Below, in pieces: positions 40,664 through 63,019 of a DNA stretch of 64,000 nucleotides; positions within the stretch are counted from its first letter, which is position 1, and the number at the start of each line of letters is the position of its first letter. The notes beneath the pieces were generated by a model. The model was given only the letters and a program-made list of their open reading frames with translations, was not told the origin of the DNA and ran no database searches. The translations under genes and the position numbers were made by a program. Source of the stretch: Thiohalobacter thiocyanaticus (GTDB taxonomy: Bacteria; Pseudomonadota; Gammaproteobacteria; Thiohalobacterales; Thiohalobacteraceae); contig NZ_AP018052.1 of the NCBI RefSeq assembly GCF_002356355.1, forward strand, positions 558,001 to 622,000. The letters run 5' to 3'.

Positions 40664-41473
40664 ATGATGCATGAAAAGTCGATCCCCGTTCGCGGTGATA
40701 CGCCTGAAAGAGCCATTCTGTGCATGGCAGGCAGTGGTAGATCCGGTACGTCCCTGGTCGCGAGTTTCTTGCACAAATCTGGAATCATGATGGGGAATGA
40801 TATGCGCGGCCCCACTCATTCGAACAGGTTGGGGTATTTCGAGGACATGGATTTCCTCGACTTCCATAAAGGGATGCTGTCACGCAGTGGCGTGGATCGA
40901 TATACGCCATGGCTGGAATTCGATATCAGCGAAAATGATTTCAGGTATGGGCAGGAACTGATCGAAAAACGGAATAAGGAGCACGTGCACTGGGGGTGGA
41001 AGGATCCGCGGGCGACCATGTTTATGGATTTCTGGCTGAAGGTCGAACCCGATATCAGATTTCTAGTGATGTATCGCGATCCCTCTGAGGTTATGACATC
41101 GATGTACCGGGAGCAGAGGCGGCGGATAAGATATCGTCACCCCACGTATGCGCCTCGCACTTGGATAGTGAATAATCTGCAAGCTTTGAATTTTTCTCAG
41201 AGGCATCCGGGCTCGGTGGCGTTTCTGGATTTGAGAACGATAAAGGAAAAGCCGCGGGAAGTGATTGGGGAATTAAGCGCCTGGATGGGTGTGCCACTGT
41301 CAGTTGATGTATGGAACCAGGTATACAAGCCTTCCGAACTGCGAGCGGTGAGACAGAACAGATTGAAGGAGCCAGTGATTAGCAATTTGGTTAGATTTGC
41401 TCATTCCTGTTATGGATCGGAAATGCGGGAAGTGTACAAGTTGCTGTGCGCCTCATCCCTGGGAAAAAGATGA
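40664..41473 (+). CDS. PAPS-dependent sulfotransferase family protein
   Basis: The 269-residue protein has the 5'-phosphosulfate-binding loop MAGSGRSGTSLVASFLHKSG at residues 21-40, WKDPRATMFMDFW, and a 3'-phosphate-binding-like region FLVMYRDPSEVMTSMYREQR. It should move sulfate from PAPS onto a sugar or lipid. ATG 40664 lies about ten bases after AGGA; a TTG at 40655 is the alternative. Codon use is more AT-rich than in flanking genes, suggesting transfer. It is the first gene of the exopolysaccharide cluster. Confidence 0.88.
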   Translation: MMHEKSIPVRGDTPERAILCMAGSGRSGTSLVASFLHKSGIMMGNDMRGPTHSNRLGYFEDMDFLDFHKGMLSRSGVDRYTPWLEFDISENDFRYGQELIEKRNKEHVHWGWKDPRATMFMDFWLKVEPDIRFLVMYRDPSEVMTSMYREQRRRIRYRHPTYAPRTWIVNNLQALNFSQRHPGSVAFLDLRTIKEKPREVIGELSAWMGVPLSVDVWNQVYKPSELRAVRQNRLKEPVISNLVRFAHSCYGSEMREVYKLLCASSLGKR

Positions 41474-41540
41474 GGGGGATGAATTAGGGGTGACTTCGAC
41501 GGCGGTGCCCGGTGAATGGCGAAAAGGATTAGGTGGCGGT

Positions 41541-43682
41541 ATGCGTACGCTACTGCATACGATACTGTTGTGTGTCTGCCTGGGAGGAATGCCGGCCCTG
41601 CTGGCGGCTGAGAGTGCGCAGTACCAACCAGCGTCTGCACGTATGCTGCCAGCACTGGAAGCGCTTTCATTGACACCCCCAGGGTCGGCCGGCCGGCCGG
41701 CGGGTTCCCGGGGAAGGGTGATCTCACGCGGAGATCAGCTGTTTTTCGAAGACGGTACGCGAGCGAGATTCTGGGGGGTAGGCCTTACGTTTTCCGGCTG
41801 GCGACCGATAGCCTTCCCGCCGCCGAAAGAAGACGTAGAGGATTTTGTTTACACGCTGAAGTCATACGGGTTCAATCTGGTCAGATTTGTCGGTATCGAT
41901 AATAGCCTCCCTTCTTTATGTGAATACTGGAAGAAGTATGGCCATTTCGGCGGCCCGGTCATGGATCGTCTTGATTATCTGGTGGCGGAGCTCGTTGAGA
42001 GCGGTATCTATTATTCCTTCTCCATCAATAACTCATCCTTGTGTCCCCTCGATGCGTTCGATGGCGATCATACCAACGATCATCCGCAATCCTGGCGACG
42101 CTATCATGGTAAACGTTTGATCCGTCCCTACATGGTACGCAGACAGACGGACTGGATTGCAGATTTTTTTGCGCATAAGAACCCCTATACGGACAAAACC
42201 TATGCGGAAGATCCCGCCAATGTGTATCTCGCTGCGGTCAATGAGGACTCGGTCTGGTCTGTTTACTTCCGCGATAACAAATATCTTTCGAAGCAGGACC
42301 GGCTATGGCTCGATGAGGATTTCAGGGACTGGTTGAATAGCCGGAGGTCGATCCAGGATAGAAAGGGAACTGAAGCCTCGACTGCCGAGGCAGCCGATTT
42401 CAGTCTCTGGAGGCCAAGGTGGCTGCTTAGCCGGGACCAGAGGAAGTTGATCTATTCCTATCTGGCTCACGCCGATGCCCGTCTGGTTACGGAACTGAAG
42501 GATCGGCTACGGGCTATAGGGTATCAGGGTCTGATAACGCCGACCAACAACTGGTATGGATACGGGGCGCTGGATACTGCATCGCGGCATGGAGATTACG
42601 TCGAGGTGCATGGCTATTTCGATCACCCGATGGGGGCGGACAGGGAGATAGAAGGCAAATCGTTCCTGATGCGGGACGAGGGTTTTGCGGGGATTGATAA
42701 AACCGACTGGTCTTTTCCTCTCACCAAGGCAGCGCGCAGTGCGCTGCCTGATAAACCGCTGATCATGGGGGAGTGGAATCATGCGGCCTGGAGTCCCTAC
42801 GCTTATGAGGGGCCCTTTCTCATGTACGCCTATAGTGCCTTGCAGGACTATGCCGGCTTGGTGGCGCATACCTGGTTTCCCTATCCGGAATCCAGGAATG
42901 GCCCGGATGTGGAGCTAAATGCATTTTCCGTTTCGACGAACCCGCTGTTCCTCAGGCTGAGCCCGATATTGTCGGCCGCATGGCTGGGACATTGCCTCAA
43001 ACCGCATGCCGAAGTACTCGAAGTTGGTCTGGGTGATTCCTTCGGGGAGGTGGTCGACAGGACATTTGCTGTGGAAATGGGGCCTGATCCTGCCGTCAAA
43101 GTCGGTGACGGATTTCATAAGCTGATGCGAGTGCGATTCCCCCATAGTCCGGTTATTGATTTAAAATCGGATGCTGGCTCGGATCCCGGCGTTATTCGCC
43201 TCTCGAGTCAGATGTCTGCTGCTGCGGGCTGGGCCGCAGTCGAAGGCGATTGCGTGGCCGGTGCGGTGTTTTCGGGGCAGGGAGGTGTGCTGGATCTGGC
43301 GGGCGGTGTAAGCATAAGAATGAACGAGCAGGGAAGTGTGGTTGCGGTGGCCCTTGATGGCAGGCGAATTGCCGATTCATCGGACTTGGCGGTTACGCTG
43401 GTGGGCTCGCCTGCCATCGCTTGGCCTGAGGGCAATGGTGAGCGGATGCGATTCAGGCAGCCGGCCGGGACTACCCTGACGGCCGGGGCGGTATCTGCAT
43501 CCCTGTCGATGCCGAAGACTGGAGAATGCCCGCAGGGGCAGTGGGTGGGAGGTCAGTCGCGGTATGACAAGATGATCATTCAGTCGGCGAAGGAGAATAA
43601 TCTCTGTGTGATCCAAGTCGAAAGCAGGAATGGCGCTTGGGTGAGGCTCAGAGAGGGAGATGTCCTAGTGTCAACCGAATAA
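41541..43682 (+). CDS. Secreted glycoside hydrolase of the GH-A type
   Basis: The 713-residue protein starting at 41541 has a signal peptide (LLHTILLCVCLGGMPALLAA). The catalytic barrel shows GTRARFWGVGLTFSGW, LKSYGFNLVRFVGID, the likely acid/base Glu235 in AAVNEDSVW, EVHGYFDHPMG and the likely nucleophile Glu411 in LIMGEWNHAAW, all in the order of clan GH-A enzymes such as GH5 and GH42. The C-terminal 200 residues look like beta-sandwich domains. It probably trims or degrades a polysaccharide made by this locus. The longer frame from 41397 overlaps the sulfotransferase gene and was rejected because it lacks a signal. Confidence 0.85.
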   Translation: MRTLLHTILLCVCLGGMPALLAAESAQYQPASARMLPALEALSLTPPGSAGRPAGSRGRVISRGDQLFFEDGTRARFWGVGLTFSGWRPIAFPPPKEDVEDFVYTLKSYGFNLVRFVGIDNSLPSLCEYWKKYGHFGGPVMDRLDYLVAELVESGIYYSFSINNSSLCPLDAFDGDHTNDHPQSWRRYHGKRLIRPYMVRRQTDWIADFFAHKNPYTDKTYAEDPANVYLAAVNEDSVWSVYFRDNKYLSKQDRLWLDEDFRDWLNSRRSIQDRKGTEASTAEAADFSLWRPRWLLSRDQRKLIYSYLAHADARLVTELKDRLRAIGYQGLITPTNNWYGYGALDTASRHGDYVEVHGYFDHPMGADREIEGKSFLMRDEGFAGIDKTDWSFPLTKAARSALPDKPLIMGEWNHAAWSPYAYEGPFLMYAYSALQDYAGLVAHTWFPYPESRNGPDVELNAFSVSTNPLFLRLSPILSAAWLGHCLKPHAEVLEVGLGDSFGEVVDRTFAVEMGPDPAVKVGDGFHKLMRVRFPHSPVIDLKSDAGSDPGVIRLSSQMSAAAGWAAVEGDCVAGAVFSGQGGVLDLAGGVSIRMNEQGSVVAVALDGRRIADSSDLAVTLVGSPAIAWPEGNGERMRFRQPAGTTLTAGAVSASLSMPKTGECPQGQWVGGQSRYDKMIIQSAKENNLCVIQVESRNGAWVRLREGDVLVSTE

Positions 43683-43766
43683 GCTGGACTTCCGCGGAAA
43701 GCATAAAATCGGCCGGCTGGCTGCCCAGCCCCGAAATAACCATTACTGAGGCAGGTGGAGGATAAA

Positions 43767-44603
43767 ATGCAACCGGGTTCACATAAGAAACTGAATCGCT
43801 GGGGTAAGAAGGCTGCACCAGCGCTTTCGCGCGTCCTCAATCGCTCCCCCATGGTCGGGCTTGTCTCGATGATATCTTGGTATCTGGCCTTCATTCAGGG
43901 TAAAGGGTCGGGGGCGGGATGGGATCTCGAGGCGGAAATAAAGGGGGCGTTGAGCGCTATTCGCAGGGACAGTCATGAATCGCTTGTGTTGTTCGATGTG
44001 GGTGCGAATGTGGGTGACTGGACGGAAGGGATGCTAGCTGCCCTGGGGGATGGCTGTGCCATATACCAGTTCGAGCCAACCTTGGAATGCCGTGAGATCC
44101 TGCTGCAGAAGTCGAGGCCGAATGTGGTTCTGGTCCCGTATGGAGTCGGTGCCGAGGAAGGCGAGGCGGAAATCTATAGTATTTCGGGAGTAAAGGCAAA
44201 ATCGGCTTCCCTGTATGCCCGTAAGGATACCTGCTTTGAGGATCGAAGCTATACGAAGGAAACGATACGAATAACCACGATAGACGATTTCGTGGACCAG
44301 AATAATATGGATAGAATCGACTTCATGAAGATGGATATTGAGGGGCATGAATACGCGGCCCTGAAAGGGGCTGTGAAGACGCTCGAGCGGGGCGCTATCG
44401 CGGCGCTTACATTCGAATTCGGAACTGGAAACATCAATTCCCGAACCTACTTTCGGGATTTCTGGGATCTGCTTACGCCTCTCGGATATAGGATTTCCAG
44501 GATCTGACCTGGAGGAATCCTGCTCCCGGTCGATCAGTATTATGAGGATCTCGAGTATTTCCGGGGAGCTACTAACTACCTTGCCGTGCTTGAGTTGTCT
44601 TGA
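43767..44603 (+). pseudogene. FkbM-family methyltransferase gene with an in-frame TGA
   Basis: From ATG 43767 (after GGAGG) the frame encodes a SAM-dependent methyltransferase: VLFDVGANVGDWTEGMLAAL, YQFEPTLECREIL, VGAEEGEAEIYS, ITTIDDFVDQNNMDRIDFMK, MDIEGHEYAALKGA and LTFEFGTGN. A TGA at 44505-44507 (codon 247) follows GYRISRI, but the same frame goes on with PGGILLPVDQYYEDLEYFRG and ATNYLAVLELS to a TGA at 44601-44603, which is the normal FkbM ending. So a point mutation, or sequencing error, removed about 31 residues. The 246-residue product has the whole SAM core and might still work. A decayed copy of the same 3' end lies at 45737. Confidence 0.85.
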
Positions 44604-44873
44604 AGTATTACCCATAGGACTACCTGTCAGTCTCTAACAAAATGACGGGATGAAACAGCTTTGATTGAATTGCAATGACAAGAAGGCAGTGGATGGAGAT
44701 GATGTCGGTGGGCTGGGTTGGCAGCTTTTTGTGTGCGCAAATTAGTGCGGAGCATCGAGAGACTCAGCTGTAAAAGTATGGGAAGTAGAGGGTTTTAGGG
44801 AGTTGTTCCAGTTGATTTGGGTTGTAGAAAAGTTGGATTGTGTTTCTAGTAAGTGCTACGGGGCAAGGTGTCT

Positions 44874-45725
44874 ATGAGTATGCCAATTCTTCTATCTGGT
44901 GCTAGAAAACTGGTTCGATCGGCTGAAATGAAATATCGGATAGCCTCATCTGATACGAGACTATTGCCAGATTTTATAATCGTTGGTGCTCAAAAAGCTG
45001 GAACAACTAGTATGTTCTATTGGCTGAGTAAGCATCCTCAGCTTAAGGCTTCGGCCGCTAAAGAAGTGCATTATTTTGATGGGGGGCTTGACTCTTCGAT
45101 AGATAATTATGCGAAAGGTCTCTCATGGTACAAGGCGCATTTCCCAAAATACACGTCATTGCGGGAAGGCGAACGAGTTTTTGAGGCGTCCCCGTTATAT
45201 CTGTTTAATCCGAATGCTCCAAAGCGGATATACGAATTATTGCCTGACGTTAAAATAATTGTGATGCTAAGAAATCCGATAGAGCGGGCAGTTTCTCACT
45301 ATTTTCATGAGAAAAGACGCAACAGGGAGCCGCTAACGCTATATGAAGCAATTGTTACTGAAGAGCAACGACTTAGGCCGTATGTTGATGCGGGTGATTA
45401 TAAAAATCCAATATATATTCAGCATAGCTATAAATCAAGAGGGCTTTATCTGGAACAGTTGAAGCGTTACTTAGATTATTTTCCTTTGAAAAACATTCTC
45501 ATACTGAGTAGCGAAGACTTTTTTCGTGAGCCTGAAAAATGCATGAAACAGGTCTTTGAATTCGTCTCAGTAGATCCAAATTATAGATTGGGGCATTTAA
45601 AAAGAATGAATGTCGGAAGCAACAGATCTGCAATTGAGCCTGAAGTATACGAATACCTAAAAGATTATTTTAGTCAACCAAATGCGGATCTTTATGAGTT
45701 TCTGAGTATGGATTACGGGTGGTGA
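44874..45725 (+). CDS. Sulfotransferase, heparan N-sulfotransferase-like
   Basis: The 283-residue protein has PDFIIVGAQKAGTTSMFYWL (5'-phosphosulfate loop, residues 33-50), KEVHYFDG, a 3'-phosphate-binding segment VKIIVMLRNPIERAVSHYFH and GLYLEQLKRYLDYFP, as in the Sulfotransfer_1 family that includes heparan sulfate sulfotransferases. It should sulfate a glycan with PAPS. ATG 44874 has AAGGTG upstream; GTG 44853 is an alternative. The gene and 250 bases on each side are clearly AT-rich compared with the rest of the window, so it is probably acquired. It lies between an FkbM gene and a decayed copy of that gene's end. Confidence 0.92.
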   Translation: MSMPILLSGARKLVRSAEMKYRIASSDTRLLPDFIIVGAQKAGTTSMFYWLSKHPQLKASAAKEVHYFDGGLDSSIDNYAKGLSWYKAHFPKYTSLREGERVFEASPLYLFNPNAPKRIYELLPDVKIIVMLRNPIERAVSHYFHEKRRNREPLTLYEAIVTEEQRLRPYVDAGDYKNPIYIQHSYKSRGLYLEQLKRYLDYFPLKNILILSSEDFFREPEKCMKQVFEFVSVDPNYRLGHLKRMNVGSNRSAIEPEVYEYLKDYFSQPNADLYEFLSMDYGW

Positions 45726-45736
45726 TGCGCCCAATA

Positions 45737-45947: not shown

Positions 45948-46006
45948 GGAAACTCCAAGGTGCTTTTCAAGTCGCTTAGAGAAATGAAAACAGAAAGTCG
46001 CCTCCC

Positions 46007-47245
46007 TTGAGATTCGGTATCAAACAACGATTGCAGGAAATGGCATGGGTGACCGGTGGGTTGGCGACCTCGCGCATACTCACGCTGCTCGCTTCCGTCG
46101 TGGGCGCGAGGATCCTCGAGGTGGAGGAGTTCGGAAGATTTACATTATTCGTTACGGTGGCGCTGTTGATGGCGGACATGGGGCGTCCCATAGATAACGC
46201 CTATGTCCGGGAGACTTCCGGGAAACACAATGTCGATGCTGAGTCATATTATCACTACTCCGTCCGCCTCAAGCTCGCTTTGGTTGCAGTCGCGCTGCTC
46301 GCCTGGATTCCGGTCTGGGCGTATTCCGGAAGTGTATATGCGAGCATCCCCGGAATAATAGGCGCCGCAATGGTGGTCGGCTCATTCTGGATGATAACGT
46401 ATTCACTACTGTCCGATTTTCAGCGGCGACAGCAATTCATGCGGGTGGGCCTGCTCAATCCATTGACCGGCCTCACGCTTCTGCTTGCGGTTGCTGTTGT
46501 GGCAGCAGGGGGCGAGCCGGGGCTGGGGGCTGTGGTGATTTGCACCCTTGTTCTGTCGCTGGCGGTGGCGGTGTTTAACCTGGCGCTGATTTTCAAGCGA
46601 CGCGCGGCAAGGCTGTACGGTGATGAGCGCAAGCGGTTCCTCAAGCTGGTATGGGTGTTCTTCTCCTCGGGGGCGGTGCTGCAACTTGCAGGTCGGCTGG
46701 ACACATTGTTGGTGGCCGCGATGACCAATATGAGAGAGCTGGCATACTATGGTGCGGCCGCCCGTACTGCAGGGCCGGTCGGGATGCTGGGGGCGGGGGC
46801 GGGTATGCTGCTCCTGCCGGTGGCAAGGCAGGCCTATGAATCGTCCCGGGGGCTGCATGATTATGTGCGCAGGTCCCTGCTCTACAACATGGCGCAGTTA
46901 GCCGTTCTGGCCCTGCTGTTCGCATTCAGTGACCAGATTGTGTTATGGCTTTTCGGTGAGGGCTATGGCGCGAGCGCGGTGATATTGAAATGGCTGCTGC
47001 TTTCGCGGATGCTGAGCGCACTGGTCGTTCCCTATCGGGTGTTGCTGCAGGCCAGCCAGCGTCCGGGGCGGCTGTTTTCCCTTTCCCTGATCAGAATGTT
47101 TTCGGGCGCAGCGGGAATTCTGGCGCTGGTACCGGTGATGGGGGCATCCGGAGCAGCGGTTGGTTTGAGTGTGGGTGAGTTCGTCACCCTGTGCAGCGCT
47201 GCGGCCTTCGTGCATCGCGGCTGGCGTCATGATAGGGAATTCTAA
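46007..47245 (+). CDS. Polysaccharide flippase, Wzx-like
   Basis: The 412-residue membrane protein has about twelve transmembrane helices and the MATE/MOP-like polysaccharide exporter pattern: WVTGGLATSRILTLLASVVG followed by ARILEVEEFGRF near the start, and a later LVAAMTNMRELAYYGAAAR segment. It would flip lipid-linked repeat units across the inner membrane for polymerisation. The start is uncertain: TTG 46007 is the first usable codon, with ATG 46040 as alternative. It is followed after three bases by the polymerase/ligase gene. Confidence 0.87.
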   Translation: MRFGIKQRLQEMAWVTGGLATSRILTLLASVVGARILEVEEFGRFTLFVTVALLMADMGRPIDNAYVRETSGKHNVDAESYYHYSVRLKLALVAVALLAWIPVWAYSGSVYASIPGIIGAAMVVGSFWMITYSLLSDFQRRQQFMRVGLLNPLTGLTLLLAVAVVAAGGEPGLGAVVICTLVLSLAVAVFNLALIFKRRAARLYGDERKRFLKLVWVFFSSGAVLQLAGRLDTLLVAAMTNMRELAYYGAAARTAGPVGMLGAGAGMLLLPVARQAYESSRGLHDYVRRSLLYNMAQLAVLALLFAFSDQIVLWLFGEGYGASAVILKWLLLSRMLSALVVPYRVLLQASQRPGRLFSLSLIRMFSGAAGILALVPVMGASGAAVGLSVGEFVTLCSAAAFVHRGWRHDREF

Positions 47246-47248
47246 TAG

Positions 47249-48679
47249 ATGAGCCTTGTTGTCAGCATAGCCGCTATCGGCCTCGTCCTGTTCACTATCG
47301 GCCTGGTGATCGGCCGGATGCGCCTTATCGCCGATACCGGGTCCAGGTATGAGTGGGGTTTCTGGGGCTGGGCCTGGGTGGCCATGTTCATGAGCGGTAC
47401 CCTGTTCTTCGGGCACAGCTACTCAACTAGGTCCGTGGCATTGGATGCCTCCGCCATGGTCCAATTGGCTTGGGTGGCGGCCGCATGTTGCTTCGTGTTG
47501 GTGTCGCTACCACGAACTAAAATTCTTTTCGGCTTGGCAGCGTTGCCCATAATGTTGTTTCTCCTGTACGGGCTGTTCGGGCTCGTTACCAGTGTCCTGT
47601 CCCCGGCGCCTAAGTTCTCGGCCTACAAGGCGGGCTTGGTGGTGGTGGATGCCATACTGGCGGCCGGGTTTCTGTCGTTGAGCCTGCGCGGAAGTCGTTG
47701 GCGGGTGTCGGACTTCGTGCTGGGATTGATTGTACTCGCCCTAGGTGGGGCGCTGCTCGGTGCAGTTCTATGGCCGGGCGAGGCCTTTCAGCTCAAATCA
47801 GGCGTTTTCGGGGTGATGCTTTACGGCACCCTGCCCATAATGCATCCGAACGAACTGGGGATGTGGGGCGGAATCGTGATGGTCGTTTCCCTGGTCCGCT
47901 GGTTCGCGGCCTCCACGGCAAGATCGAGGTGGGCCTGGTTGTTCATTGGCACGTCGAGCGCGACAGTGGTTCTGCTGGCCCAGTCGCGCACCTCGGTGGC
48001 TGCCATCCTGGTCAGCCTGCTGGTTGCGATCCCGTATCTGGCAAGAACGCGGGCCCAGGCCCTGATCGGTGGGGGCGTGCTGATCATGCTTGCGGTCGGC
48101 GTCGTTGGCGTAGCCACTGTGATTGTCGGACCTGACACACTGTTCGGGCCGCTCGTCGAATACCTCAAGAGGGGGCAAGATCAGGGTGGCTTGGAAACGA
48201 TGCATGGCCGGGTGTGGGCATGGATGAATATCGGCTGGCCGATGTTTATGGAGTCACCACTCATCGGCAATGGGTTCGACGCCGGGACTCGGTTTGCTAC
48301 CGATGTCACGATCGGTCATCTACACAATTCGTTTTTCCAGGTCCTTGCCAACAGCGGGCTACTCGGTTTCATCCCCTGGGTGATGGCGGTAACTATCGGG
48401 TCCTGCCAGCTGTTTCTCAGGGCATGGCGTCGCCGCAGTGCGCCGCTGCAACAGCGGGTCTCTGCCCTGGTGGCGCTGCTCATTATGATAGGCTTGCTCG
48501 CGAGAGCTTGGACCGGCTCTGTCCTGGTATCACATGCCTGGTCTACTATGATGTTCCTTGGCTTGATGGTGGATCTATACGCCAGCCGGCGCAGTCGGGT
48601 GAGCGAGTCGGCTGCAAACAACGTTAAGAATAAAACCGATGTCACACGAAAAACTCTATTGGCTCACAGACGGGCTTAA
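47249..48679 (+). CDS. O-antigen ligase/polymerase family membrane protein
   Basis: The 476-residue protein has ten or more transmembrane helices and the Wzy_C-type signature: a large periplasmic loop with GRVWAWMNIGWPMFMESPLI followed by GNGFDAGTRFA, then HLHNSFFQVLANSGLLGFIP. It should polymerise the repeat unit or ligate the glycan in the periplasm. Next to a Wzx-like flippase, a Wzy polymerase role is more likely. Its last 41 bases overlap the next gene. Confidence 0.87.
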   Translation: MSLVVSIAAIGLVLFTIGLVIGRMRLIADTGSRYEWGFWGWAWVAMFMSGTLFFGHSYSTRSVALDASAMVQLAWVAAACCFVLVSLPRTKILFGLAALPIMLFLLYGLFGLVTSVLSPAPKFSAYKAGLVVVDAILAAGFLSLSLRGSRWRVSDFVLGLIVLALGGALLGAVLWPGEAFQLKSGVFGVMLYGTLPIMHPNELGMWGGIVMVVSLVRWFAASTARSRWAWLFIGTSSATVVLLAQSRTSVAAILVSLLVAIPYLARTRAQALIGGGVLIMLAVGVVGVATVIVGPDTLFGPLVEYLKRGQDQGGLETMHGRVWAWMNIGWPMFMESPLIGNGFDAGTRFATDVTIGHLHNSFFQVLANSGLLGFIPWVMAVTIGSCQLFLRAWRRRSAPLQQRVSALVALLIMIGLLARAWTGSVLVSHAWSTMMFLGLMVDLYASRRSRVSESAANNVKNKTDVTRKTLLAHRRA

Positions 48680-49352
48680 GCGGGCAGTCGCCGGAAGCCG
48701 GATGGGAGGCGTGTTCAACTCTCCCGCCGGCAAGCTGGTGCGCAGCTGGCTGTTCCAGGGCGTGTTGTATATGTCGCCCGATGAGCTGCTGTTTCGTATA
48801 GCGGCGGAGGTCGCAGTGATCGGGGCGGTATGGTGGCTGATTGCCGATCCGGTTTCCTGGTCCGGCGTCCTGGCAGTCATTGTGGTACACACCCTGTTCT
48901 GGCTCGTGAACAGCCATTTCTGGGCGCTGGAGATCCGCAAGGGCGTGCGGCTGGTGAAGAATCGGCCGCAGGCGGTGAAGAATTACCTGGAGGCGTTGCG
49001 GGGACGGTGCACAAGATGTCGCTCCATTAAGTGGTGCTTCGCCTCGGGTAGTCTTGCCCGTGGCGCCTTCGGTGTGTATTCGGACCTCGACGTGGCCTGT
49101 ATCCCCCGGCCGGGGAACTGGAATCGCATCGTGGTGCTGGCCTTCGGCATGCGGGAGCGGTTGATCGCCGCGTTCAAAAGGATGCCGGTGGAGCTGTACT
49201 GCTACAGTGAGGAGGCGCTGGCGCACATCTCACCCGAAGAGTGCCGACTTGTCCTGAAGGGGCCGGGGAAGGCGGATGGTGATATGCAGAGATGGATGAG
49301 TTGGGATTGTTTCTGGGATTCGCCGTCGGAATTTTTCCAGCAATGCGAGTGA
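48639..49352 (+). CDS. Membrane-anchored nucleotidyltransferase-fold protein
   Basis: The 237-residue protein has two hydrophobic helices (AAEVAVIGAVWWLIADPVSW and GVLAVIVVHTLFWLV) and then a polymerase-beta-type nucleotidyltransferase core: ASGSLARGAFGVYSDLDV with G137-S138 and D149/D151. A CTRC pair precedes the core (RGRCTRCRSIKW). Its substrate is not known. Fusion of this fold to membrane helices within a polysaccharide cluster is unusual. It overlaps the polymerase gene by 41 bases. Confidence 0.8.
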   Translation: MSHEKLYWLTDGLKRAVAGSRMGGVFNSPAGKLVRSWLFQGVLYMSPDELLFRIAAEVAVIGAVWWLIADPVSWSGVLAVIVVHTLFWLVNSHFWALEIRKGVRLVKNRPQAVKNYLEALRGRCTRCRSIKWCFASGSLARGAFGVYSDLDVACIPRPGNWNRIVVLAFGMRERLIAAFKRMPVELYCYSEEALAHISPEECRLVLKGPGKADGDMQRWMSWDCFWDSPSEFFQQCE

Positions 49353-50564: not shown

Positions 50565-50566
50565 AC

Positions 50567-54546: not shown

Positions 54547-56133
54547 ATGGGTATGAACAGCGCAACCACCACCAAGTCTCTTTCGATATTTTCAGCCGGA
54601 ATCTGGGTCTTGTTGATTTTGACGGCAGGCATCCTGGGCTATGCCTATGCCGACGCCATCGAATACATGGTAAATCGTTGGAACGGCTCCGAGGAATATG
54701 GTTATGCCTATCTGATACCGGTTATTACCGCTTTCCTGATCTGGCAGCGCAGGTTCGAAATCCAGAGGGTCGGAATACGGCATTCCTATGCCGGGCTGGT
54801 GCTGGTTGCGTTAGGCGGCCTGCTGCTGTTTCTGGGTACCATGGCCACAACGCATACGCTGTCGCAGTATTCCATCGTCATCGTGATTATGGGACTTGCA
54901 CTGACTTTCCTGGGGTGGTCCGCCTTCAGGCTGGCCTTTGCGCCGCTGTTCCTGCTCTTCTTCATGGTGCCGTTACCGCCGTTCGTTTTCAATACGCTGT
55001 CCAATCAGCTGCAGCTGATTTCCTCCGAGATCGGGGTTGCGGTGATCCGTCTGTTCGGCATCAGCGTCTATCTCGAAGGCAATGTGATCGACCTGGGCAG
55101 CTACAAGCTGCAGGTGGTCGAGGCCTGCAGCGGCCTGCGCTACCTGTTCCCGCTGGCCAGCCTTTCATTCGTTGCCGCGTATATCTATAAGGGTGCGTTG
55201 TGGAAGAAGGCGATCATTTTCCTGTCCAGTGCGCCCATCACGGTGTTGATGAACAGCTTTCGCATCGGCGTGATCGGTGTCCTGGTGGAATACGGCGGCC
55301 CGGGCCAGGCGGAAGGTTTTCTGCATGATTTCGAGGGCTGGGTCATCTTCATGGCCTGTATTGCCATCCTGATCCTGGAGATGGCGGTGCTGGCCAAGAT
55401 CGGCAAGCGGAAAATGACCCTGAGCGAGGCCTTCGGTATCGATATACCCGAGCCCCCCGAAGATGATGTTCCCCGCAAGCGGGTCAAGCCTGCTGTCCCC
55501 GGTTATCTGGCCATTGGTGTTGCACTGCTGACTGTCTGGGGAGTGGAGCATGCCTCCAGCAGCGAAAATATCGTGCCTGATCGCAGGCTTTTCGTGGGTT
55601 TTCCCATGGAGTTCGGCAACTGGGCGGGACGAGAGGACCGGCTGGAAAGCATTTACCTCCAGGCGCTGAAGCTGGATGACTACATCATGGCCGATTATCG
55701 TAATGGTAAGGGTCAGCAGGTGAATTTCTATGCGGCCTACTATGCCGATCAGGCTGCCGGCGAGGCCGCGCATTCGCCCCGCGCCTGTATTCCGGGTGGT
55801 GGCTGGCTGATCAGGAATCATGAGGTGGTGCCGGTGGAAGGAGTTGAGGTTCTCGGGCGCTCACTTGAAGTCAACCGCATGATTATCGCCAAGGGGGATT
55901 TCCGCCAGTTGGTGTATTACTGGTTCCAGCAACGGGGGCGGGTGATTACCAATGAGTACTGGGTAAAAGGCTACCTGTTCTGGGATGCGCTGACCCGCAA
56001 CCGCACCGACGGGGCCCTGGTGCGGCTGACCATCCCGATTCAGCCCGGGCAGGATCTGGCCGATGCAGAGGAGGCGCTGCGGGAGTTTGCCGGGCTGGTG
56101 GTGCCGAAACTGGGACCGTATGTGCCGGAGTGA
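54547..56133 (+). CDS. Exosortase fused to an EpsI domain (XrtD-like)
   Basis: The 528-residue protein joins an exosortase (about 1-300, eight membrane helices) to an EpsI domain (about 320-528). Candidate catalytic residues are C194 (EACSGLRYL), R239 (NSFRIGVIG) and H260 (GFLHDFEGW). The tract FMVPLPPFVFNTLSNQLQLI followed by SVYLEGNVIDLGSYKLQVVE resembles the XrtD group thought to process VPLPA-CTERM proteins, rather than XrtA; this subtype call is from memory. EpsI has AHSPRACIPGGGWLI and VYYWFQQRGRVITNEY. Exosortases cut PEP-CTERM-like proteins and are tied to exopolysaccharide production. No VPLPA-type substrate is seen in the window. Confidence 0.9.
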   Translation: MGMNSATTTKSLSIFSAGIWVLLILTAGILGYAYADAIEYMVNRWNGSEEYGYAYLIPVITAFLIWQRRFEIQRVGIRHSYAGLVLVALGGLLLFLGTMATTHTLSQYSIVIVIMGLALTFLGWSAFRLAFAPLFLLFFMVPLPPFVFNTLSNQLQLISSEIGVAVIRLFGISVYLEGNVIDLGSYKLQVVEACSGLRYLFPLASLSFVAAYIYKGALWKKAIIFLSSAPITVLMNSFRIGVIGVLVEYGGPGQAEGFLHDFEGWVIFMACIAILILEMAVLAKIGKRKMTLSEAFGIDIPEPPEDDVPRKRVKPAVPGYLAIGVALLTVWGVEHASSSENIVPDRRLFVGFPMEFGNWAGREDRLESIYLQALKLDDYIMADYRNGKGQQVNFYAAYYADQAAGEAAHSPRACIPGGGWLIRNHEVVPVEGVEVLGRSLEVNRMIIAKGDFRQLVYYWFQQRGRVITNEYWVKGYLFWDALTRNRTDGALVRLTIPIQPGQDLADAEEALREFAGLVVPKLGPYVPE

Positions 56134-56352: not shown

Positions 56353-57999
56353 TTGACTGAGATTCCTGCCAATCACCTGTTGATACTGGTCGCGGCCATG
56401 GTCATCAGCATGACGCTGATCCCGGTCATGGTCCGGCTGGCGCCCGTGCTGGGCATGGTCGACAAGCCGGATCCGCGCAAGGTGCATTCCGTTCCCATCC
56501 CGCGGGTGGGCGGAGTCGGGATCGTTATCGGCAGTCTGGTGCCGCTGTTGGTGTGGCTGCCTGTCGACACTCTGATGGCGAGCTATCTTGCGGGGGCGCT
56601 GATCCTGCTCCTGTTCGGGGCCTGGGACGATGCCAAAGAGCTGGGCCACTATGTGAAGTTCATCGGCCAGTTCGCGGCGGTGCTCGGCGTGGTCTACTGG
56701 GGCGATCTGTATGTCACCCAGCTGCCGCTGCTGGGGCCGGATGCCATGTCGGAATCCATGGGCCGGGTGTTCACCGTCATCGCCATGGTGGGCATGATCA
56801 ACGCCATGAACCACTCCGACGGCCTGGACGGGCTGGCCGGGGGCGAATCGCTGATCAGCCTGCTGGCGATCATCTATCTGGCCTATCAGGCCGGCGGCGA
56901 TCCGGCGGTGATCATTGCGGTGGCCACCATCGGTGGGGTGTTTGGCTTTCTGCGCTTCAACTCGCATCCGGCGCGGGTATTCATGGGCGACGGCGGCAGT
57001 CAGTTCCTGGGCTTCACCCTGGCCTTTCTGGCGGTATACCTGATGACCCGGGTCAATCCGGCACTGAGCCCGGCCCTGCCGCTGCTGTTTCTCGGGCTGC
57101 CTATCGTCGACATCCTGGCGGTGTTCGCCCAGCGCATCTACCACGGCATGAACTGGTTCCGCGCCACCAAGAACCATATTCATCACCGGCTGCTGGAACT
57201 GGGCTTCGAGCATCACGAATCCGTGATCACCATCTATGCCATCCAGGCGTTGCTGGTGCTGCTTGCGGTGGTGCTGCCCTACGAGCATGACCTGCTCATC
57301 ATCGGGATCTACGTCGGAGTTTCCGTAGCGGTCTTCGCCGGGCTGATCGTTGCGGAACGCAGCGGCTGGCGGAAGAGCCGGGAACGGCTGCTGTTCCCGG
57401 CGGTGAAGGCTTTCGGTGTGATCCGCAAGCAGCCCCAGTTCCTGCAGGCGCTGACCGGCCTGGTGATGGCGGTGATCGCCCTGTATGCGCTGGTGGTCGC
57501 CTTTGTGGTGGAACAGGTGCCGCTGCAGTTCGGCTATATTCTTGTCGTGCTCGCCGGCCTCCTGCTCGCCCGGCTGCTGGCGGGCTTCCGCCTGTGGTTT
57601 CTGTTCCTGCGCCTGACGCTGTTCCTGTCCATGGCGGCGCTGGTGTATCTGGTCAACCTGTATCCGCAGCCCTGGTTCGCAGAGGTATCCCGCTTTTTCG
57701 ATTATGCGGTGTTTGCGGTGTTGATCCTGGCGATTGCTGCGGGCATGCGGTTCGCGGAGAATTCCCGCTTCGATGTCAGTCCGCTGGATTTTCTGGTCAT
57801 CCTGATGTTGCTGGTGGCAGGGATCTTCCCGCAGCAGATCGGGTTGAGCGAGATGCTGCTGCGGCTGATCATTGAGTTCGTGGTGTTGTTCTATGCGGTG
57901 GAGTGGGTGCTCAAGCACATGCGCAGCCGGTGGAACCTGATGACGCTGGGGGTGCTGGGGAGTCTGGTGGTGTTGTCGGGGCGGTTTGTGGTGGGGTGA
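56353..57999 (+). CDS. Polyprenyl-phosphate sugar-1-phosphate transferase, WecA/MraY type
   Basis: The enzyme would start glycan synthesis by moving a sugar 1-phosphate (GlcNAc-1-P in WecA) to undecaprenyl phosphate. The 548-residue membrane protein has DKPDPRKVHSVPIPRVGGVG, GAWDDAKEL, NAMNHSDGLDGLAGG (metal-binding Asp), HPARVFMGDGGSQFLGF and ATKNHIHHRLLELGF. It is about 200 residues longer than WecA because of extra C-terminal transmembrane helices (from about 350). It begins with TTG; a later ATG at 56398 is possible. Confidence 0.9.
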   Translation: MTEIPANHLLILVAAMVISMTLIPVMVRLAPVLGMVDKPDPRKVHSVPIPRVGGVGIVIGSLVPLLVWLPVDTLMASYLAGALILLLFGAWDDAKELGHYVKFIGQFAAVLGVVYWGDLYVTQLPLLGPDAMSESMGRVFTVIAMVGMINAMNHSDGLDGLAGGESLISLLAIIYLAYQAGGDPAVIIAVATIGGVFGFLRFNSHPARVFMGDGGSQFLGFTLAFLAVYLMTRVNPALSPALPLLFLGLPIVDILAVFAQRIYHGMNWFRATKNHIHHRLLELGFEHHESVITIYAIQALLVLLAVVLPYEHDLLIIGIYVGVSVAVFAGLIVAERSGWRKSRERLLFPAVKAFGVIRKQPQFLQALTGLVMAVIALYALVVAFVVEQVPLQFGYILVVLAGLLLARLLAGFRLWFLFLRLTLFLSMAALVYLVNLYPQPWFAEVSRFFDYAVFAVLILAIAAGMRFAENSRFDVSPLDFLVILMLLVAGIFPQQIGLSEMLLRLIIEFVVLFYAVEWVLKHMRSRWNLMTLGVLGSLVVLSGRFVVG

Positions 58000-58011
58000 G
58001 GGGTAAGTCTT

Positions 58012-58221
58012 GCAGGTTGGATCAGCCGAAGGCGTAATCCGGCATTGCGTGATGTCGGGTTACGCTGCGCTAACCCGACCTACGGCACTGTTGGTTGGCC
58101 GTCAGCTTTCCCGTCATCCCGGCGAAGGCCGGGATCCATGAACCGCGGCGGCTTCTGGATCCCGGCCTTCGCCGGGATGACGGGTGTGGGTTGGGGTGAT
58201 GGGTGTGGGTTGGGATGATGG
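58012..58221. repeat. GTAGGTCGGGT-like repeat, dRS3-like repeat and a 19-bp tandem pair
   Basis: A diverged GTAGGTCGGGT-type copy (about 58012-58083), a dRS3-like copy (58112-58182) and a direct repeat of GGGTGTGGGTTGGGGTGAT (58183-58221, two units, one change) precede gmd. Confidence 0.85.
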
Positions 58222-58254
58222 AAAATATTTTGAATTGTGGGGTGTGAGAGAAAA

Positions 58255-59343
58255 ATGAGTAAAGTTGCATTGATCACCGGCATCACGGGCCAGGACGGCG
58301 CCTATCTGGCGGAGTTCCTGCTGGAGAAGGGCTATGAAGTGCACGGCCTCAAGCGCCGGGCCTCGTCGTTCAATACCGACCGCATCGATCACCTGTACCA
58401 GGATCCGCATGTCAGCGACCGACATTTCATACTGCACTATGGCGATCTGACCGATTCCACCAACCTGATCCGCATCATCCAGCAGGTGCAGCCGGACGAG
58501 ATCTACAACCTGGCCGCGCAGAGCCATGTGGCGGTCTCCTTCGAGACGCCGGAGTACACCGCCAATGCCGATGCGCTTGGCACCCTGCGGCTGCTGGAGG
58601 CGATCCGCATCCTGGGACTGGAGAAGAAGACCAAATTCTATCAGGCCTCGACCAGCGAGCTGTTCGGCAAGGTGCAGGAGATACCGCAGAAGGAGACCAC
58701 GCCCTTCTATCCGCGCAGCCCCTATGCCGTGGCCAAGCTCTATGCCTACTGGATCTGCGTCAACTACCGGGAGGCCTACGGCATCTATGCCTGCAACGGT
58801 ATCCTGTTCAACCACGAATCCCCCATTCGCGGCGAGACCTTCGTCACCCGCAAGATCACCCGCGCCATCGCCCGCATCAAGCTCGGGCTGCAGGACAAGC
58901 TGTACCTGGGCAACCTGGACGCCAAGCGCGACTGGGGGCATGCAAAGGACTATGTGCGTATGCAGTGGCTGATGCTGCAGCAGGATGAGCCGGACGATTA
59001 CTGCATCGCCACCGGGGTGCAGTACTCGGTGCGTGATTTCGTCAACGCCGCCTGCAGCGAGGTCGGCATCCAGTTGGACTGGCAGGGCGAGGGCGTGGAC
59101 GAGAAGGGCATCGACCGCAAGAGCGGGCAGGTGCTGGTTGAGGTCGACCCGCGCTACTTCCGGCCCACCGAGGTGGAGACCCTGCTGGGCGATCCGTCCA
59201 AGGCCAAGCAACAGCTGGGCTGGGTGCCGGAGATCAGCTTCGACGAGATGGTTGCGGAGATGGTGCGCGAGGACATCAAGATCGCCGAGCGTGATGAACT
59301 GTGCAAGCGTGAGGGCTACAAGACGTTCGATTACAACGAGTGA
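58255..59343 (+). CDS. gmd: GDP-mannose 4,6-dehydratase
   Basis: Gmd makes GDP-4-keto-6-deoxymannose, the first step to GDP-L-fucose and related sugars. The 362-residue short-chain dehydrogenase has the NADP loop [33 protein letters not shown], the catalytic Ser/Thr in [16 protein letters not shown]-x3-K in [12 protein letters not shown], and [19 protein letters not shown]. The start at 58255 (MSKVAL) has AGAGAGAAAA upstream. It lies 43 bases before fcl. Confidence 0.97.
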
Positions 59344-59386
59344 AGATCAAGAGCGCCACGGAATACACGGAAAGCACGGAAGATTT

Positions 59387-60340
59387 ATGAATAAAAACGC
59401 AATAATCTATGTGGCTGGCCACCGCGGCCTGGTTGGCGGCGCCATCGTCCGGCAGCTGGAGAAGGCGGGATATACGAACCTGGTCACGCGCACCAGCCGC
59501 GAGCTGGATCTGCGCGACCAGGCGCAGGTGAATGAATTCTTCGAGGCGGAGCAGCCGGAGTACGTGTTCCTGGCGGCGGCCAAGGTGGGCGGGATTCTGG
59601 CCAACGACAGTTACCCGGCCGAGTTCCTGTATGACAACCTGATGCTGGAGGCCAATGTCATCCACGCCGCGTATAAGAATGGGGTGAAGAAGCTGCTGTT
59701 CCTGGGCAGTACCTGCATCTACCCCAAGCACGCGCCCCAGCCGATGCCGGAGGACAGCCTGCTCACCGGGCCGCTGGAGCCGACCAACGAATGGTACGCG
59801 GTGGCCAAAATCGCCGGCATCAAGCTGTGCCAGGCCTACCGGCGCCAATACGGCTGCAGCTTCATTTCGGCCATGCCGACCAACCTGTACGGCATCGGCG
59901 ACAACTTCGATCTGGAGAAATCCCACGTCATGCCGGCGCTGATCCGCAAGATGCACGAGGCGAAGCAGGCCGGGGCGCCGAGCGTGAAGATCTGGGGTAC
60001 GGGCACGCCGCTGCGCGAGTTCCTGTTCGTCGACGACTGTGCCGATGCCTGCCTGTTCCTGATGCAGAATTACGACGACGCAGGCATCGTCAATATCGGC
60101 GTGGGCGAGGATATCTCCATCGCCGACCTGGCCCGGCTGGTGGCCGGGGTGGTGGGCTATGCGGGCGAACTGGTGTTCGACACCAGTAAACCTGACGGCA
60201 CGCCGCGCAAGCTGGTGGATACCTCGCGGATCAATGCCCTGGGCTGGCGGCCGACGGTTTCCCTGGAGGCGGGAATCCGGTTAACCTACGATTGGTACCG
60301 CGAGCAGCTGGATGCTGCCGGGGTGCGGGGGGTTGGATAA
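59387..60340 (+). CDS. fcl: GDP-L-fucose synthase
   Basis: Fcl (WcaG) epimerises and reduces the Gmd product to GDP-L-fucose. The 317-residue protein shows [60 protein letters not shown] with the catalytic Ser, Y-x3-K in [33 protein letters not shown] and [15 protein letters not shown]. It is paired with gmd. A CCACGGAATACACGGAA repeat lies in the spacer before it. Confidence 0.97.
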
Positions 60341-60350
60341 TATTCTAATA

Positions 60351-60565
60351 GCCACGGAATACACGGAAGGCACGGAAAAAAACAAAATATATTAAAAAGT
60401 TATTTGTTTCCGGTCGTGTTCTCGTCATCCCGGCGCAGGCCGGGATCCAGAAGCCGCCGCGGTAACTGGATTCCCGCCTGCGCGGGAATGACGGGAAAGG
60501 CGGCGGATAACCTGCAGATACTCATGTTTTGGTTTTTTCCGTGCTTTCCGTGTATTCCGTGGCCA
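60351..60565. repeat. CCACGGAATACACGGAA inverted repeats around a dRS3-like repeat
   Basis: GCCACGGAATACACGGAAGG at 60351 and its inverse CCTTTCCGTGTATTCCGTGG-like copy at about 60534-60565 enclose a dRS3-like palindrome (60423-60494). A third, direct copy lies at 59354-59380 before fcl. No gene lies in 60341-60595. Confidence 0.85.
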
Positions 60566-60595
60566 TTAAAATCAAATAAAACACAGGTGGATGCA

Positions 60596-63019
60596 ATGAA
60601 TCTCAAGAAAACGACACTGGTGGTGGTGCTGGCTGCGGTCCTCGGGGCCTGCGGCGGCGCGGAGGAGCGCAAGCAGGCCTATCTGGAACGCGGCAAGGCC
60701 TACCTGGAGGAGGAGAACTTCGACAAGGCCCGGGTGGAGATCAAGAACGTGCTGCAGATCGATCCCAAGCATGCCGAAGCCTATCTGCTGATGGGTCGGA
60801 TCATGGAGGAGGAGCAGGCGTGGGCCAAGGCATACGGCAATTATAAGAAAGCGGTTGATCTCGATCCTTCGCTGCTCGATGCGCGTATGAGGCTTGGTCA
60901 GTTCATGCTGCTTCAGGCAAATGCATCCAGGGCCCGTGAAGAAGTCGAGGCGGAGGAAGAGGCTATAGCGGTAGTTCGGGAGCAATTGGCTGCGATCCGC
61001 GAAAACAACCCGGACCATCAGGGTGTTGTCATACTGGAAGCTGCTCTGCAGTCACGCGAGGGTGATGCTGAAGCGTCTATCTCTACCCTCAAAAAATATT
61101 TTGACCGATATCCTGATAAGACCGAGGTTGCTGTATTGCTTGCTCGCTCCTATATGGGGGTAGAGCAATTCGATGATGCACAACAGGTGCTCGAGCGGGC
61201 TGTCAGTACCGCCCCCGATGATCCGGCTCTGAGGGTAAGGCTGGCCCGTGCCTATGCCCGCGGGGATAAGTCGGAGCAGGCGATAAACAGCATGCATGAG
61301 GCCATCCGGTTGCAGCCTGATGCGCTGGAGCCTCGAATTACACTGGCGACTTATCTGGCTCAGCTGGATCGGCATGAAGAGGCTGAAAAGATTCTTCGTG
61401 AAACCATTGCCGCAGATCCGGAGGATCCTGATCGCTACCTGGTCATGGCTGATTTTATCCACCGCTGGAAATCGTTTGATCAAGCAGTGGACGAGCTACA
61501 ACAGGCTATCCGTGAGTTGCCGGAAGCCGAAGGGATTCGCTTTGCGCTGGCCAGACTGTATGCCAGTGAAAATCACACGGAAGAACAGAAGCAGGTGCTT
61601 GGAGATATTGCCGACAAGTGGGGCGATGAGCCGCCTGGATTGACAGCCAGAGTGGCATTGGCTGAGATCGCTGCTTCTGAAGGAGATGTGGATACAACGC
61701 GGAAGCTTGTGTCCGAGGTGCTTGAGCATAACCCTGGTGATAATGGGGCTCTTATGCTCAAGGGCAGGCTTGCGTTGATGGATAGGAATTATACTGATGC
61801 AATTACCGCCTTGCGTACTGTTGTTAAAGATCAACCGGACAACGCCAAAGCCATAACCCTCCTGGCTGAGGCCCACCTGCAGAATGGTGAGATCGAGCTG
61901 GCTGGTGACAACATGCGTCGTGCCGTTGAGGCTGCGCCTGATGATCTGGATGTCCGGTTGCTTTATGCAAACTATCTCATGCAGCGTCGTGAGGTTGATG
62001 CGGCGGAGGAGCAGGTGGATGCGGCCCTGAGAATCTCTCCCGACGATGCGAGAGCATTGATTGCCAAGAGCAATATACTGGCTGCCCGGAATGATCCTGA
62101 GCAGTTGAAGAAAGCTATTATGGATATTAAGGAAGCCGCCCCTGATAGTCCGGAAGGATACTTCCGCATGGCACGGGTATACCGCGCATTGGGCGAGCTT
62201 GAAGCCGCTCATGCTGAATATGAAAAAGCGCTTGATCTTGCCGAGGGGTATGGCGCCGCCATGCTGCTTGGCGATATGGTTGCCCTGGAGTTACAGATGG
62301 GCATGATTGATTCTGCAGAGGGGCGTGTGCAGTCCGTGTTGAGTGCTGATCCTGAGCATAGGACGGCACATGGGCTGATGGCCGCTGTACGAATTGCCCA
62401 GAAGCGGTATGAGGATGCCGAGCAGGAATACCTGGCTCAGATCGAGATAACTCCTGACGTGGCTCAACCATACAGCCGGCTGGCCGCGATCAGGCTGGCC
62501 CAGGACGATCAGGCGGGTGCCATTGAAGCTTACCGCATGGGGGTTGACCGGCTGCCGGGTTCTCCCGCGCTCCTGGTGCCTTTGGCAGGAGTGCACGAGC
62601 GCCAGGGTAATTACGACCGCGCCATCGAGCTCTACGAGCAGGTACTGGAGAGCAATCCCGACAACGCAATCGCCACCAACAACCTGGCCGCTTTGCTGTC
62701 CGATCGCCGCACCGATCAGGCCAGCCTGGACCGTGCCCTGGAACTGGCCGACAAGTTCAGGGATGCCGAGCAGGCCGTGTTCCTGGATACCCTGGGTTGG
62801 GTGCATTACCGCCGCGGCGAGTATGAGCAGGCGGTCGAGATCCTCAGCCGGGTGGTGGAGCAATCGCCCGATATCGCCATCTTCCACTATCACCTGGGCA
62901 TGGCGCACCATGGCGCCGGCAATGCCGCCCTGGCCCGCGAGCACCTGCAGCAGGCGGTGGATGCGGGCGGCGACTTCGCCGGTATCGAGGAGGCCAGGAA
63001 GGTGCTGGAAGGGCTGTAG
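60596..63019 (+). CDS. prsT: TPR-repeat lipoprotein, PrsT-like
   Basis: The 807-residue protein has a lipoprotein signal (LVVVLAAVLGACGG, Cys19) and then about twenty tetratricopeptide repeats, such as AYLERGKAYLEEENFDKARV with EIKNVLQIDPKHAEA. It matches the PEP-CTERM-system TPR lipoprotein PrsT, which accompanies exosortase/exopolysaccharide loci and probably acts as an outer-membrane-linked scaffold. ATG 60596 is preceded by AGGTGG; the frame extends upstream through repeats only. The middle (about 60850-62550) has lower GC than the two ends. Confidence 0.9.
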   Translation: MNLKKTTLVVVLAAVLGACGGAEERKQAYLERGKAYLEEENFDKARVEIKNVLQIDPKHAEAYLLMGRIMEEEQAWAKAYGNYKKAVDLDPSLLDARMRLGQFMLLQANASRAREEVEAEEEAIAVVREQLAAIRENNPDHQGVVILEAALQSREGDAEASISTLKKYFDRYPDKTEVAVLLARSYMGVEQFDDAQQVLERAVSTAPDDPALRVRLARAYARGDKSEQAINSMHEAIRLQPDALEPRITLATYLAQLDRHEEAEKILRETIAADPEDPDRYLVMADFIHRWKSFDQAVDELQQAIRELPEAEGIRFALARLYASENHTEEQKQVLGDIADKWGDEPPGLTARVALAEIAASEGDVDTTRKLVSEVLEHNPGDNGALMLKGRLALMDRNYTDAITALRTVVKDQPDNAKAITLLAEAHLQNGEIELAGDNMRRAVEAAPDDLDVRLLYANYLMQRREVDAAEEQVDAALRISPDDARALIAKSNILAARNDPEQLKKAIMDIKEAAPDSPEGYFRMARVYRALGELEAAHAEYEKALDLAEGYGAAMLLGDMVALELQMGMIDSAEGRVQSVLSADPEHRTAHGLMAAVRIAQKRYEDAEQEYLAQIEITPDVAQPYSRLAAIRLAQDDQAGAIEAYRMGVDRLPGSPALLVPLAGVHERQGNYDRAIELYEQVLESNPDNAIATNNLAALLSDRRTDQASLDRALELADKFRDAEQAVFLDTLGWVHYRRGEYEQAVEILSRVVEQSPDIAIFHYHLGMAHHGAGNAALAREHLQQAVDAGGDFAGIEEARKVLEGL

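Follow-up and report, generated by a model that had tools for sequence, protein, structure and literature searches.

A candidate locus of Wzx/Wzy type for a surface polysaccharide with sulfate and fucose in Thiohalobacter, with an exchangeable cassette between a kinase and the exosortase XrtD

Gene clusters for sulfated bacterial capsules and loci that pair an exosortase with exopolysaccharide (EPS) genes have each been described, and the locus analyzed here carries features of both. It occupies positions 40664-63019 of a stretch of 64,000 nucleotides, hereafter the window, which corresponds to bases 558001-622000 of the one-contig, 3.23-Mb genome of a Thiohalobacter strain (labelled G000), a member of a sulfur-oxidising genus. 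All genes of the locus are on the plus strand, and its exosortase, XrtD, is 82% identical to the XrtD of Thiohalobacter thiocyanaticus Hrh1. Judging from gene content and the comparison with related genomes, we favor with moderate confidence a Wzx/Wzy-type locus whose product would be a surface polysaccharide carrying sulfate and fucose, and in which an exchangeable cassette is held in a conserved frame that includes an adenosine-5'-phosphosulfate (APS) kinase.

Sulfated polysaccharides were described in 2021 as exclusive to cyanobacteria among bacteria (PMC8205485), and a first-pass annotation of the window regarded such a polymer from a sulfur-oxidising autotroph as notable; the available text of two later papers shows better precedents than that (PMC11641403, PMC11766843). 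For Vibrio sp. KMM 8419, genes for the synthesis of 3'-phosphoadenosine-5'-phosphosulfate (PAPS) together with sulfotransferase genes in a polysaccharide cluster are called a hallmark of sulfated polysaccharides, the capsule was measured as sulfated, and the clusters vary among strains of one species (PMC11641403); Cobetia marina KMM 1449 combines a similar cluster with a measured sulfated capsule (PMC11766843). The same hallmark set, PAPS synthesis and sulfotransferases with a gammaproteobacterial polysaccharide cluster, is present at the window locus. As far as the accessible parts of these papers go, the Vibrio and Cobetia clusters feature ABC-transporter export, rhamnose and cysD/cysN/cysC, whereas the window has a Wzx/Wzy-type locus with Gmd and Fcl, a two-domain APS kinase and an XrtD frame; the Cobetia text available contains no mention of an exosortase. 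The synechan (xss) cluster of Synechocystis 6803 shares two sulfotransferases with Wzx, Wzy and glycosyltransferases, but it is cyanobacterial, has its own copolymerase gene and other regulators, and its report does not mention exosortases in the main text (PMC8205485). A precedent in a sulfur-rich setting, sulfated glycosaminoglycan-like polymers from a sulfidic cave biofilm, appears as a title in the references of PMC10483923.

On the exosortase side, the PEP-CTERM/EpsH EPS loci of Haft 2006 resemble the window in joining an exosortase with EpsI, PrsT, PrsK, PrsR and polysaccharide genes; their report contains neither 'sulfotransferase' nor 'fucose' in its main text and, in the part available, describes no APS kinase frame, whereas the window locus has both gene types as well as the kinase (PMC1569441). 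Precedents exist for loci of sulfated capsules (Vibrio, Cobetia, Synechocystis) and, separately, for exosortase-EPS loci; their combination was found in no paper searched, in a literature mostly outside subscription journals.

A conserved frame with an exchangeable middle

XrtD scored above cut-off in 41 of 370 gammaproteobacterial genomes, to which G004 and G008 were added from an order search to give the 43 used; G371, whose exosortase falls under the cut-off, was not counted. The two-domain kinase family NF004040 (E<=1e-130) was found in 19 of the 41 XrtD genomes versus 52 of the 329 others (Fisher 2.2e-5, a value overstated by the shared kinase ancestry set out below). Judged by frame length, 20 XrtD genomes carry an unbroken two-domain kinase (G089, with a broken frame, is uncounted), and in 12 of them the kinase shares a contig with XrtD at a distance of 12.1-26.3 kb. 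In the remaining eight the two are on different contigs, where linkage cannot be judged; four of these kinases (G206, G298, G373, G347) carry an intact sulfurylase motif and may be truly unlinked.

We take the left frame to consist of a phosphohexomutase and the two-domain APS kinase, and the right frame of XrtD-EpsI, a WecA-like initiator, Gmd, Fcl, PrsT, PrsK and PrsR. The WecA-like gene adjoins XrtD in all 12 linked genomes, PrsT follows it in 11 (in the other, G370, the contig stops first), and PrsK can be seen in eight; elsewhere the available sequence either stops or shows no such gene. A phosphohexomutase follows beyond the kinase in six (the window, G008, G001, G006, G370, G295) and none was seen in G134, a count lowered mostly by stretches that end there. 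Gmd and Fcl are found at eight of the 12 loci, seven times between the WecA-like gene and PrsT and once inside the cassette (G134).

What changes is the middle. Between the window and G008, which belong to one genus, the frame proteins are 82-97% identical, except for PrsT (~70%) and for Gmd and WecA, whose genes look interrupted in G008 (G008:C1:1388655-1391671), through either a sequencing error or a real loss; between the frames, the best protein matches reach 23-28%. In the window itself, the GC content falls to 0.448 at 44-46 kb from 0.60-0.68 upstream of 40 kb, which fits recent acquisition of that part. That the kinase belongs with the locus, as the first-pass annotation supposed, is borne out by its position 12-26 kb from XrtD in 12 genomes with different middles and by its being the only APS kinase found in the genome. 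As a separate observation, a trio of a nucleotidyltransferase-like membrane protein, a GT4 glycosyltransferase and a thymidylate-kinase-like protein (48639-49352, 50567-51700 and 51693-52388 in the window) recurs as a set of neighbors in G081, G083, G295, G084 and G190.

As the annotation had suggested, sulfotransferases were looked for at other exosortase loci. Called with a home-made iterated profile, they occur in the cassettes of nine of the 12 kinase-linked loci, namely two in G000, two in G008, four in G001, two in G005, one in G006, five in G081, three in G370 and one each in G134 and G153. Six of these candidates are missed by PF00685, of which five score above the PF13469 cut-off and one just under it (25.8 vs 27). 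Counting PF00685 matches only, the kinase-XrtD interval holds one in seven of the 12 genomes, where the match totals of the individual genomes predict 0.39 (P 1.7e-8, assuming that genomes are independent and, for seven drafts, that gene places are random, with some matches near the cut-off). G001 has a gap of 35 bp between the kinase gene and a sulfotransferase gene, both on the same strand. The exosortase-wide enrichment is the weaker argument: a PF00685 gene lies within 20 kb of XrtD in eight of 43 genomes versus 2.1 expected, and four of these belong to the same family as the window strain. Elsewhere, G229:C14:58651-61281 and G325:C84:7758-10736 hold an APS kinase less than 2 kb from a sulfotransferase, on a contig other than that of XrtD; these pairs are possible further sulfation loci.

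A two-domain APS kinase and the use of PAPS

The window kinase (35364..37184, plus strand; the start may be 35457), 3.5 kb from the first sulfotransferase gene, is described incompletely by the plain 'APS kinase' of the first-pass annotation: the kinase is there, fused to a sulfurylase-like domain (NF004040, 851 bits). While the P-loop of the kinase domain is intact (GLSGAGKST), the sulfurylase motif QTRNPxHRAH has decayed to QTSKVMHRLQ. The same site reads QTRNPMHR.H in the solved enzymes 1I2D and 2GKS and QARQPMHRAQ in the enzyme of Thiobacillus denitrificans (PDB 3CR8). The family name 'bifunctional ATP sulfurylase/APS kinase' (NF004040) therefore fits by score, which is above cut-off, but not by motif; both domains, the degraded sulfurylase motif and the intact P-loop place the protein with the two-domain kinase of 3CR8, likewise from a chemolithotroph, although the window motif has changed at partly other residues. 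In the available text of two papers, the T. denitrificans protein is described as a sulfurylase-like (AS-like) domain with an APS kinase, and both cite a 2009 article titled as showing no ATP sulfurylase activity (PMC13213808, PMC6715247). The motif predicts that the window protein, too, would be a dedicated APS kinase without sulfurylase activity.

For what, then, would PAPS be made in this genome? At E<=1e-20, PF01583 matches the window kinase and no other protein of the genome. Also encoded are a stand-alone, single-domain Sat whose motif is intact, and aprA (1126 bits). A PAPS reductase (PF01507) was not found in this genome at E<=0.001, where 14 of 14 control genomes gave one. With one APS kinase and no PAPS reductase detected, sulfotransferases are the only PAPS consumers found in the genome.

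Across genomes, loss of the sulfurylase motif goes with linkage. Of 79 NF004040 rows (E<=1e-130), 74 could be read (11 linked, 63 unlinked), five being left out as shortened or broken (three) or of single-domain length (two); G008 (linked) and G004 (unlinked) from the order search bring the set to 12 linked and 64 unlinked kinases, 76 in total. An intact motif occurs in none of the 12 XrtD-linked kinases versus 41 of the 64 unlinked ones (Fisher 2.7e-5, overstated in the same way as the value above). The other 23 of the 64 are degraded, which here means any departure from QTRNPxHRAH, and two of them (G223a, G267) differ by one residue only. A sulfotransferase lies within 9 kb of the kinase in seven of 12 linked, one of 23 unlinked degraded and five of 41 unlinked intact cases, with some flanks ending at contig ends; a degraded motif is thus by itself no predictor of a nearby sulfotransferase.

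In a tree of 43 of the 45 two-domain rows (G302 and G089 were excluded as short), a 100/100 branch splits the linked from the intact group, and the 12 linked rows form one group with six unlinked ones (94/91), of which five (G084, G199, G004, G190, G239; not G256) have another locus gene near the kinase. The linked kinases hence share ancestry, the 12 loci are not independent events, and the Fisher values overstate the association. Taken with the three cassettes in which the home-made profile detected no sulfotransferase (G083, G094, G295) despite the kinase, this means that the linkage could be passively inherited: the APS kinase might be a housekeeping neighbor, and the cassette might merely use this chromosomal place. 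We regard this as very unlikely, in view of the interval sulfotransferases far above expectation, the 12 of 12 linked kinases lacking the sulfurylase motif, and a genome in which no reductive use of PAPS was found. An unrelated kinase also speaks against it: G329 has three copies of a single-domain APS kinase, and 18 kb separate one of them from XrtD, a distance that includes two sulfotransferases.

Sulfotransferases, exosortase and the likely product

PAPS-site motifs are readable in both sulfotransferases of the locus: GSGRSGTS and RDPSEVMTS in StfA (40664..41473; PF00685 E 2.3e-7 and PF13469 E 9.3e-7, both above cut-off), GAQKAGTT and RNPIERAVS in StfB (44853..45725; PF00685 E 2.2e-18). StfB is a relative of heparan sulfate sulfotransferases among solved structures (3rnl 5e-34, 1zrh 9e-25, 1nst 8e-21), and its likeness to the 3-O- (1zrh) and N-sulfotransferases (1nst) suggests that it may act on a glycan.

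Thirteen PF00685 matches occur in the genome, two in the locus and 11 elsewhere, so that sulfation of proteins or lipids at other places is possible. This raises the question of whether StfA and StfB might modify proteins or protein-borne glycans (XrtD substrates, for instance) instead of a polysaccharide. XrtD is predicted to process proteins, and next to a VPLPA-CTERM gene elsewhere in the genome stands a run of five genes that encode two sulfotransferases fused to TPR domains, a GT41-type transferase and two methyltransferases. StfA and StfB, by contrast, are single-domain proteins within a run of polysaccharide genes, and StfB has its heparan-type relatives; a protein target for the two is quite unlikely in our estimate. 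The run itself (genome 826699-837249, minus strand, or L030:6699-17249, with L030:5229-6269) consists of five adjacent TPR-fused enzymes in the order sulfotransferase, methyltransferase, methyltransferase, GT41 (OGT-like), sulfotransferase. Its make-up suggests that it would glycosylate, methylate and sulfate a surface protein, perhaps an XrtD substrate. Four further PF00685 sulfotransferases lie within 19 kb at genome 1355-1374 kb, with a gene for a lipid A acyltransferase a few kb away, and may possibly sulfate lipid or lipopolysaccharide. A gene at genome 2434139, considered as a sulfotransferase, belongs to NKWYS (PF10364) by Pfam.

The exosortase, fused to EpsI (54547..56133; TIGR02914 140 bits, cut-off 42.8), is assigned to XrtD, the VPLPA-CTERM-specific type, by score (TIGR04152, 580 bits vs 400) and by the VPLPA-CTERM proteins of the genome, eight above cut-off and 12 at E<1e-3. 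A scan for sigma-54 (PrsR-type) sites before the locus and the VPLPA-CTERM genes gave no clear excess over background in 13 target loci, of which L021 and L022 yielded no open reading frame (ORF) and L017 supplied one on the strand opposite to the match. A second exosortase locus at genome 2444-2456 kb (2444257-2455883) encodes XrtA (TIGR03109, 356 bits), a PEP-CTERM export protein (TIGR03027) and a chain-length determinant (TIGR03007).

In the XrtD locus, the parts of a Wzx/Wzy system are present as initiator, glycosyltransferases, Wzx and Wzy, the last by domain PF04932 only. No copolymerase or outer-membrane export protein was recognized among the locus proteins scanned with Pfam and NCBIfam. 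This agrees with an alternative in which the product would be a sulfated O-antigen or a lipid-anchored capsule instead of a free exopolysaccharide, the Wzy_C protein being possibly a ligase and XrtD a mere neighbor: the export and chain-length genes of the XrtA locus were recognized, and a WecA-like start with Wzx and Wzy_C domains fits an O-antigen equally well. PrsT, PrsK, PrsR and XrtD, however, go with EPS in the available account of Haft 2006 (PMC1569441) and stay beside the WecA-like gene, which adjoins XrtD in 12 of 12 related genomes with PrsT seen in 11. An O-antigen or lipid-anchored product is, on balance, unlikely.

Several further observations weigh against a sulfated, fucose-containing polysaccharide, in addition to the cassettes without sulfotransferase and the shared kinase ancestry. 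The polymer here is a prediction from genes. Compared with solved structures, StfA has no significant relative (best E 0.014). Neither Gmd nor Fcl turned up at the loci of G083, G094 and G153 (they are not visible in G370), and with three of 12 loci lacking them, fucose is not a fixed part of the system. A sulfotransferase gene (2437874-2438722) also lies in the XrtA locus, ~5.5 kb from XrtA, so that sulfotransferases may mark polysaccharide loci generally and not XrtD. Finally, disruption of EpsH left methanolan production unaffected in Methylobacillus, according to the part of Haft 2006 available (PMC1569441).

Proposed working and significance

Every gene that the first-pass annotation named in the locus is present by Pfam and NCBIfam: two PAPS-type sulfotransferases, flippase, polymerase, glycosyltransferases, WecA-like enzyme, gmd, fcl, XrtD-EpsI and PrsT. 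Its view of a sulfated fucose glycan locus keeps the Wzx/Wzy-type organization, the sulfotransferases, the GDP-fucose route and the exosortase; a single polymer bearing both sulfate and fucose, and a 'fucose-rich' one, are presumptive, the sole hint of fucosyl transfer being one WcaI-family transferase, and any action of XrtD on the glycan would be presumptive as well. It had passed over four genes: a secreted protein without known family (41541..43682), an FkbM-family methyltransferase (43755..44507; PF05050 E 1.3e-23), a membrane protein with a nucleotidyltransferase-like motif (48639..49352; weak PF01909, E 0.037, under cut-off) and a thymidylate-kinase-like P-loop protein (51693..52388; weak PF02223, E 0.0068, under cut-off). 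The secreted protein has a signal-like N-terminal stretch and no Pfam match at E 5. By eye it resembled a glycoside hydrolase; with a best solved relative at E 0.88, a model pLDDT (predicted local distance difference test) of 34.8 and not one match at E 1 in 1796 ORFs from loci of the compared genomes, we leave it unclassified. Outside the locus, the 'phosphomannomutase' of the annotation is a phosphohexomutase of that type (31864..33333, plus strand; PGM_PMM I-IV), whose NCBIfam matches are all under cut-off (best 178 bits vs 439), so that its mannose specificity is putative. Farther left, 22425-23936 encodes a choice-of-anchor F family protein (NF033657, 255 bits, cut-off 50), possibly a surface protein.

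From these genes we infer enzyme activities, a polymer with its sulfation and fucose content, a borrowed exporter and an action of XrtD on VPLPA-CTERM proteins, which could work together as follows. The enzyme at 56353..57999 (PF00953 E 4.3e-37), called only WecA-like as its TIGR02380 (WecA) match is under cut-off (156.5 vs 326), would begin repeat-unit assembly on undecaprenyl phosphate. Extension would fall to four glycosyltransferases: two of GT4 type (49437..50564, PF00534 E 1.5e-37; 50567..51700, PF13692 E 1.6e-14, scored on the longer ORF 50456-51700), one GT2 (52385..53230, PF00535 E 8.6e-16) and a WcaI-family, GT4-type enzyme (53260..54462; NF007640 571 bits, cut-off 276, ORF 53182-54462). 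The last, a candidate fucosyltransferase on the basis of the fucosyl-transfer role that we assume for WcaI, would probably add fucose from GDP-fucose made by Gmd (GDP-mannose 4,6-dehydratase, 58237..59343; TIGR01472 620 bits, cut-off 415) and Fcl (GDP-L-fucose synthase, 59387..60340; NF047922 521 bits, cut-off 500), so that both enzymes of the GDP-L-fucose pathway are above cut-off. The APS kinase would convert APS, for which aprA and the intact-motif sat are possible sources, to PAPS, and StfA and StfB would sulfate the glycan in the cytoplasm. The Wzx-type flippase (46007..47245; PF13440 E 1.2e-14, PF01943 E 1.5e-12) would flip the repeat unit, and the Wzy-like protein (47249..48679, polymerase or ligase; PF04932, Wzy_C, E 2.8e-14) would polymerize it. 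Because no such genes were seen in the XrtD locus, we propose that export may borrow the PEP-CTERM export and chain-length proteins of the XrtA locus. XrtD would process VPLPA-CTERM surface proteins encoded elsewhere, which would join the polymer coat. The right frame is completed by the TPR protein PrsT (60404..63019; TIGR02917 323 bits, cut-off 312), the histidine kinase PrsK, of which only the start is in the window (63553..64000, running on to genome 623694; TIGR02916 778 bits, cut-off 300), and, beyond the window end, PrsR (TIGR02915 715 bits, cut-off 502.6).

A more ambitious version can be sketched, which we put forward tentatively and consider rather doubtful as a whole: a serotype-like gammaproteobacterial system in which a kinase with a dead sulfurylase domain diverts APS from sulfur oxidation to PAPS used for sulfation only, the polymer is altered by swapping cassettes, and XrtD fastens VPLPA-CTERM proteins to it.

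Finally, we would like to consider what the locus means for bacteria of this kind. It extends the gene signature of sulfated polymers to a sulfur chemolithotroph and ties that signature to an exosortase, and it points to a possible function for those two-domain APS kinases whose sulfurylase motif is degraded. With one APS kinase and no PAPS reductase found, losing that gene should end PAPS-dependent sulfation, with no known effect on sulfur assimilation, and the role of a sulfated matrix in such bacteria thereby becomes directly testable. The conserved frame, in turn, gives a simple way to search genomes that lack annotation for candidate sulfated polymers.

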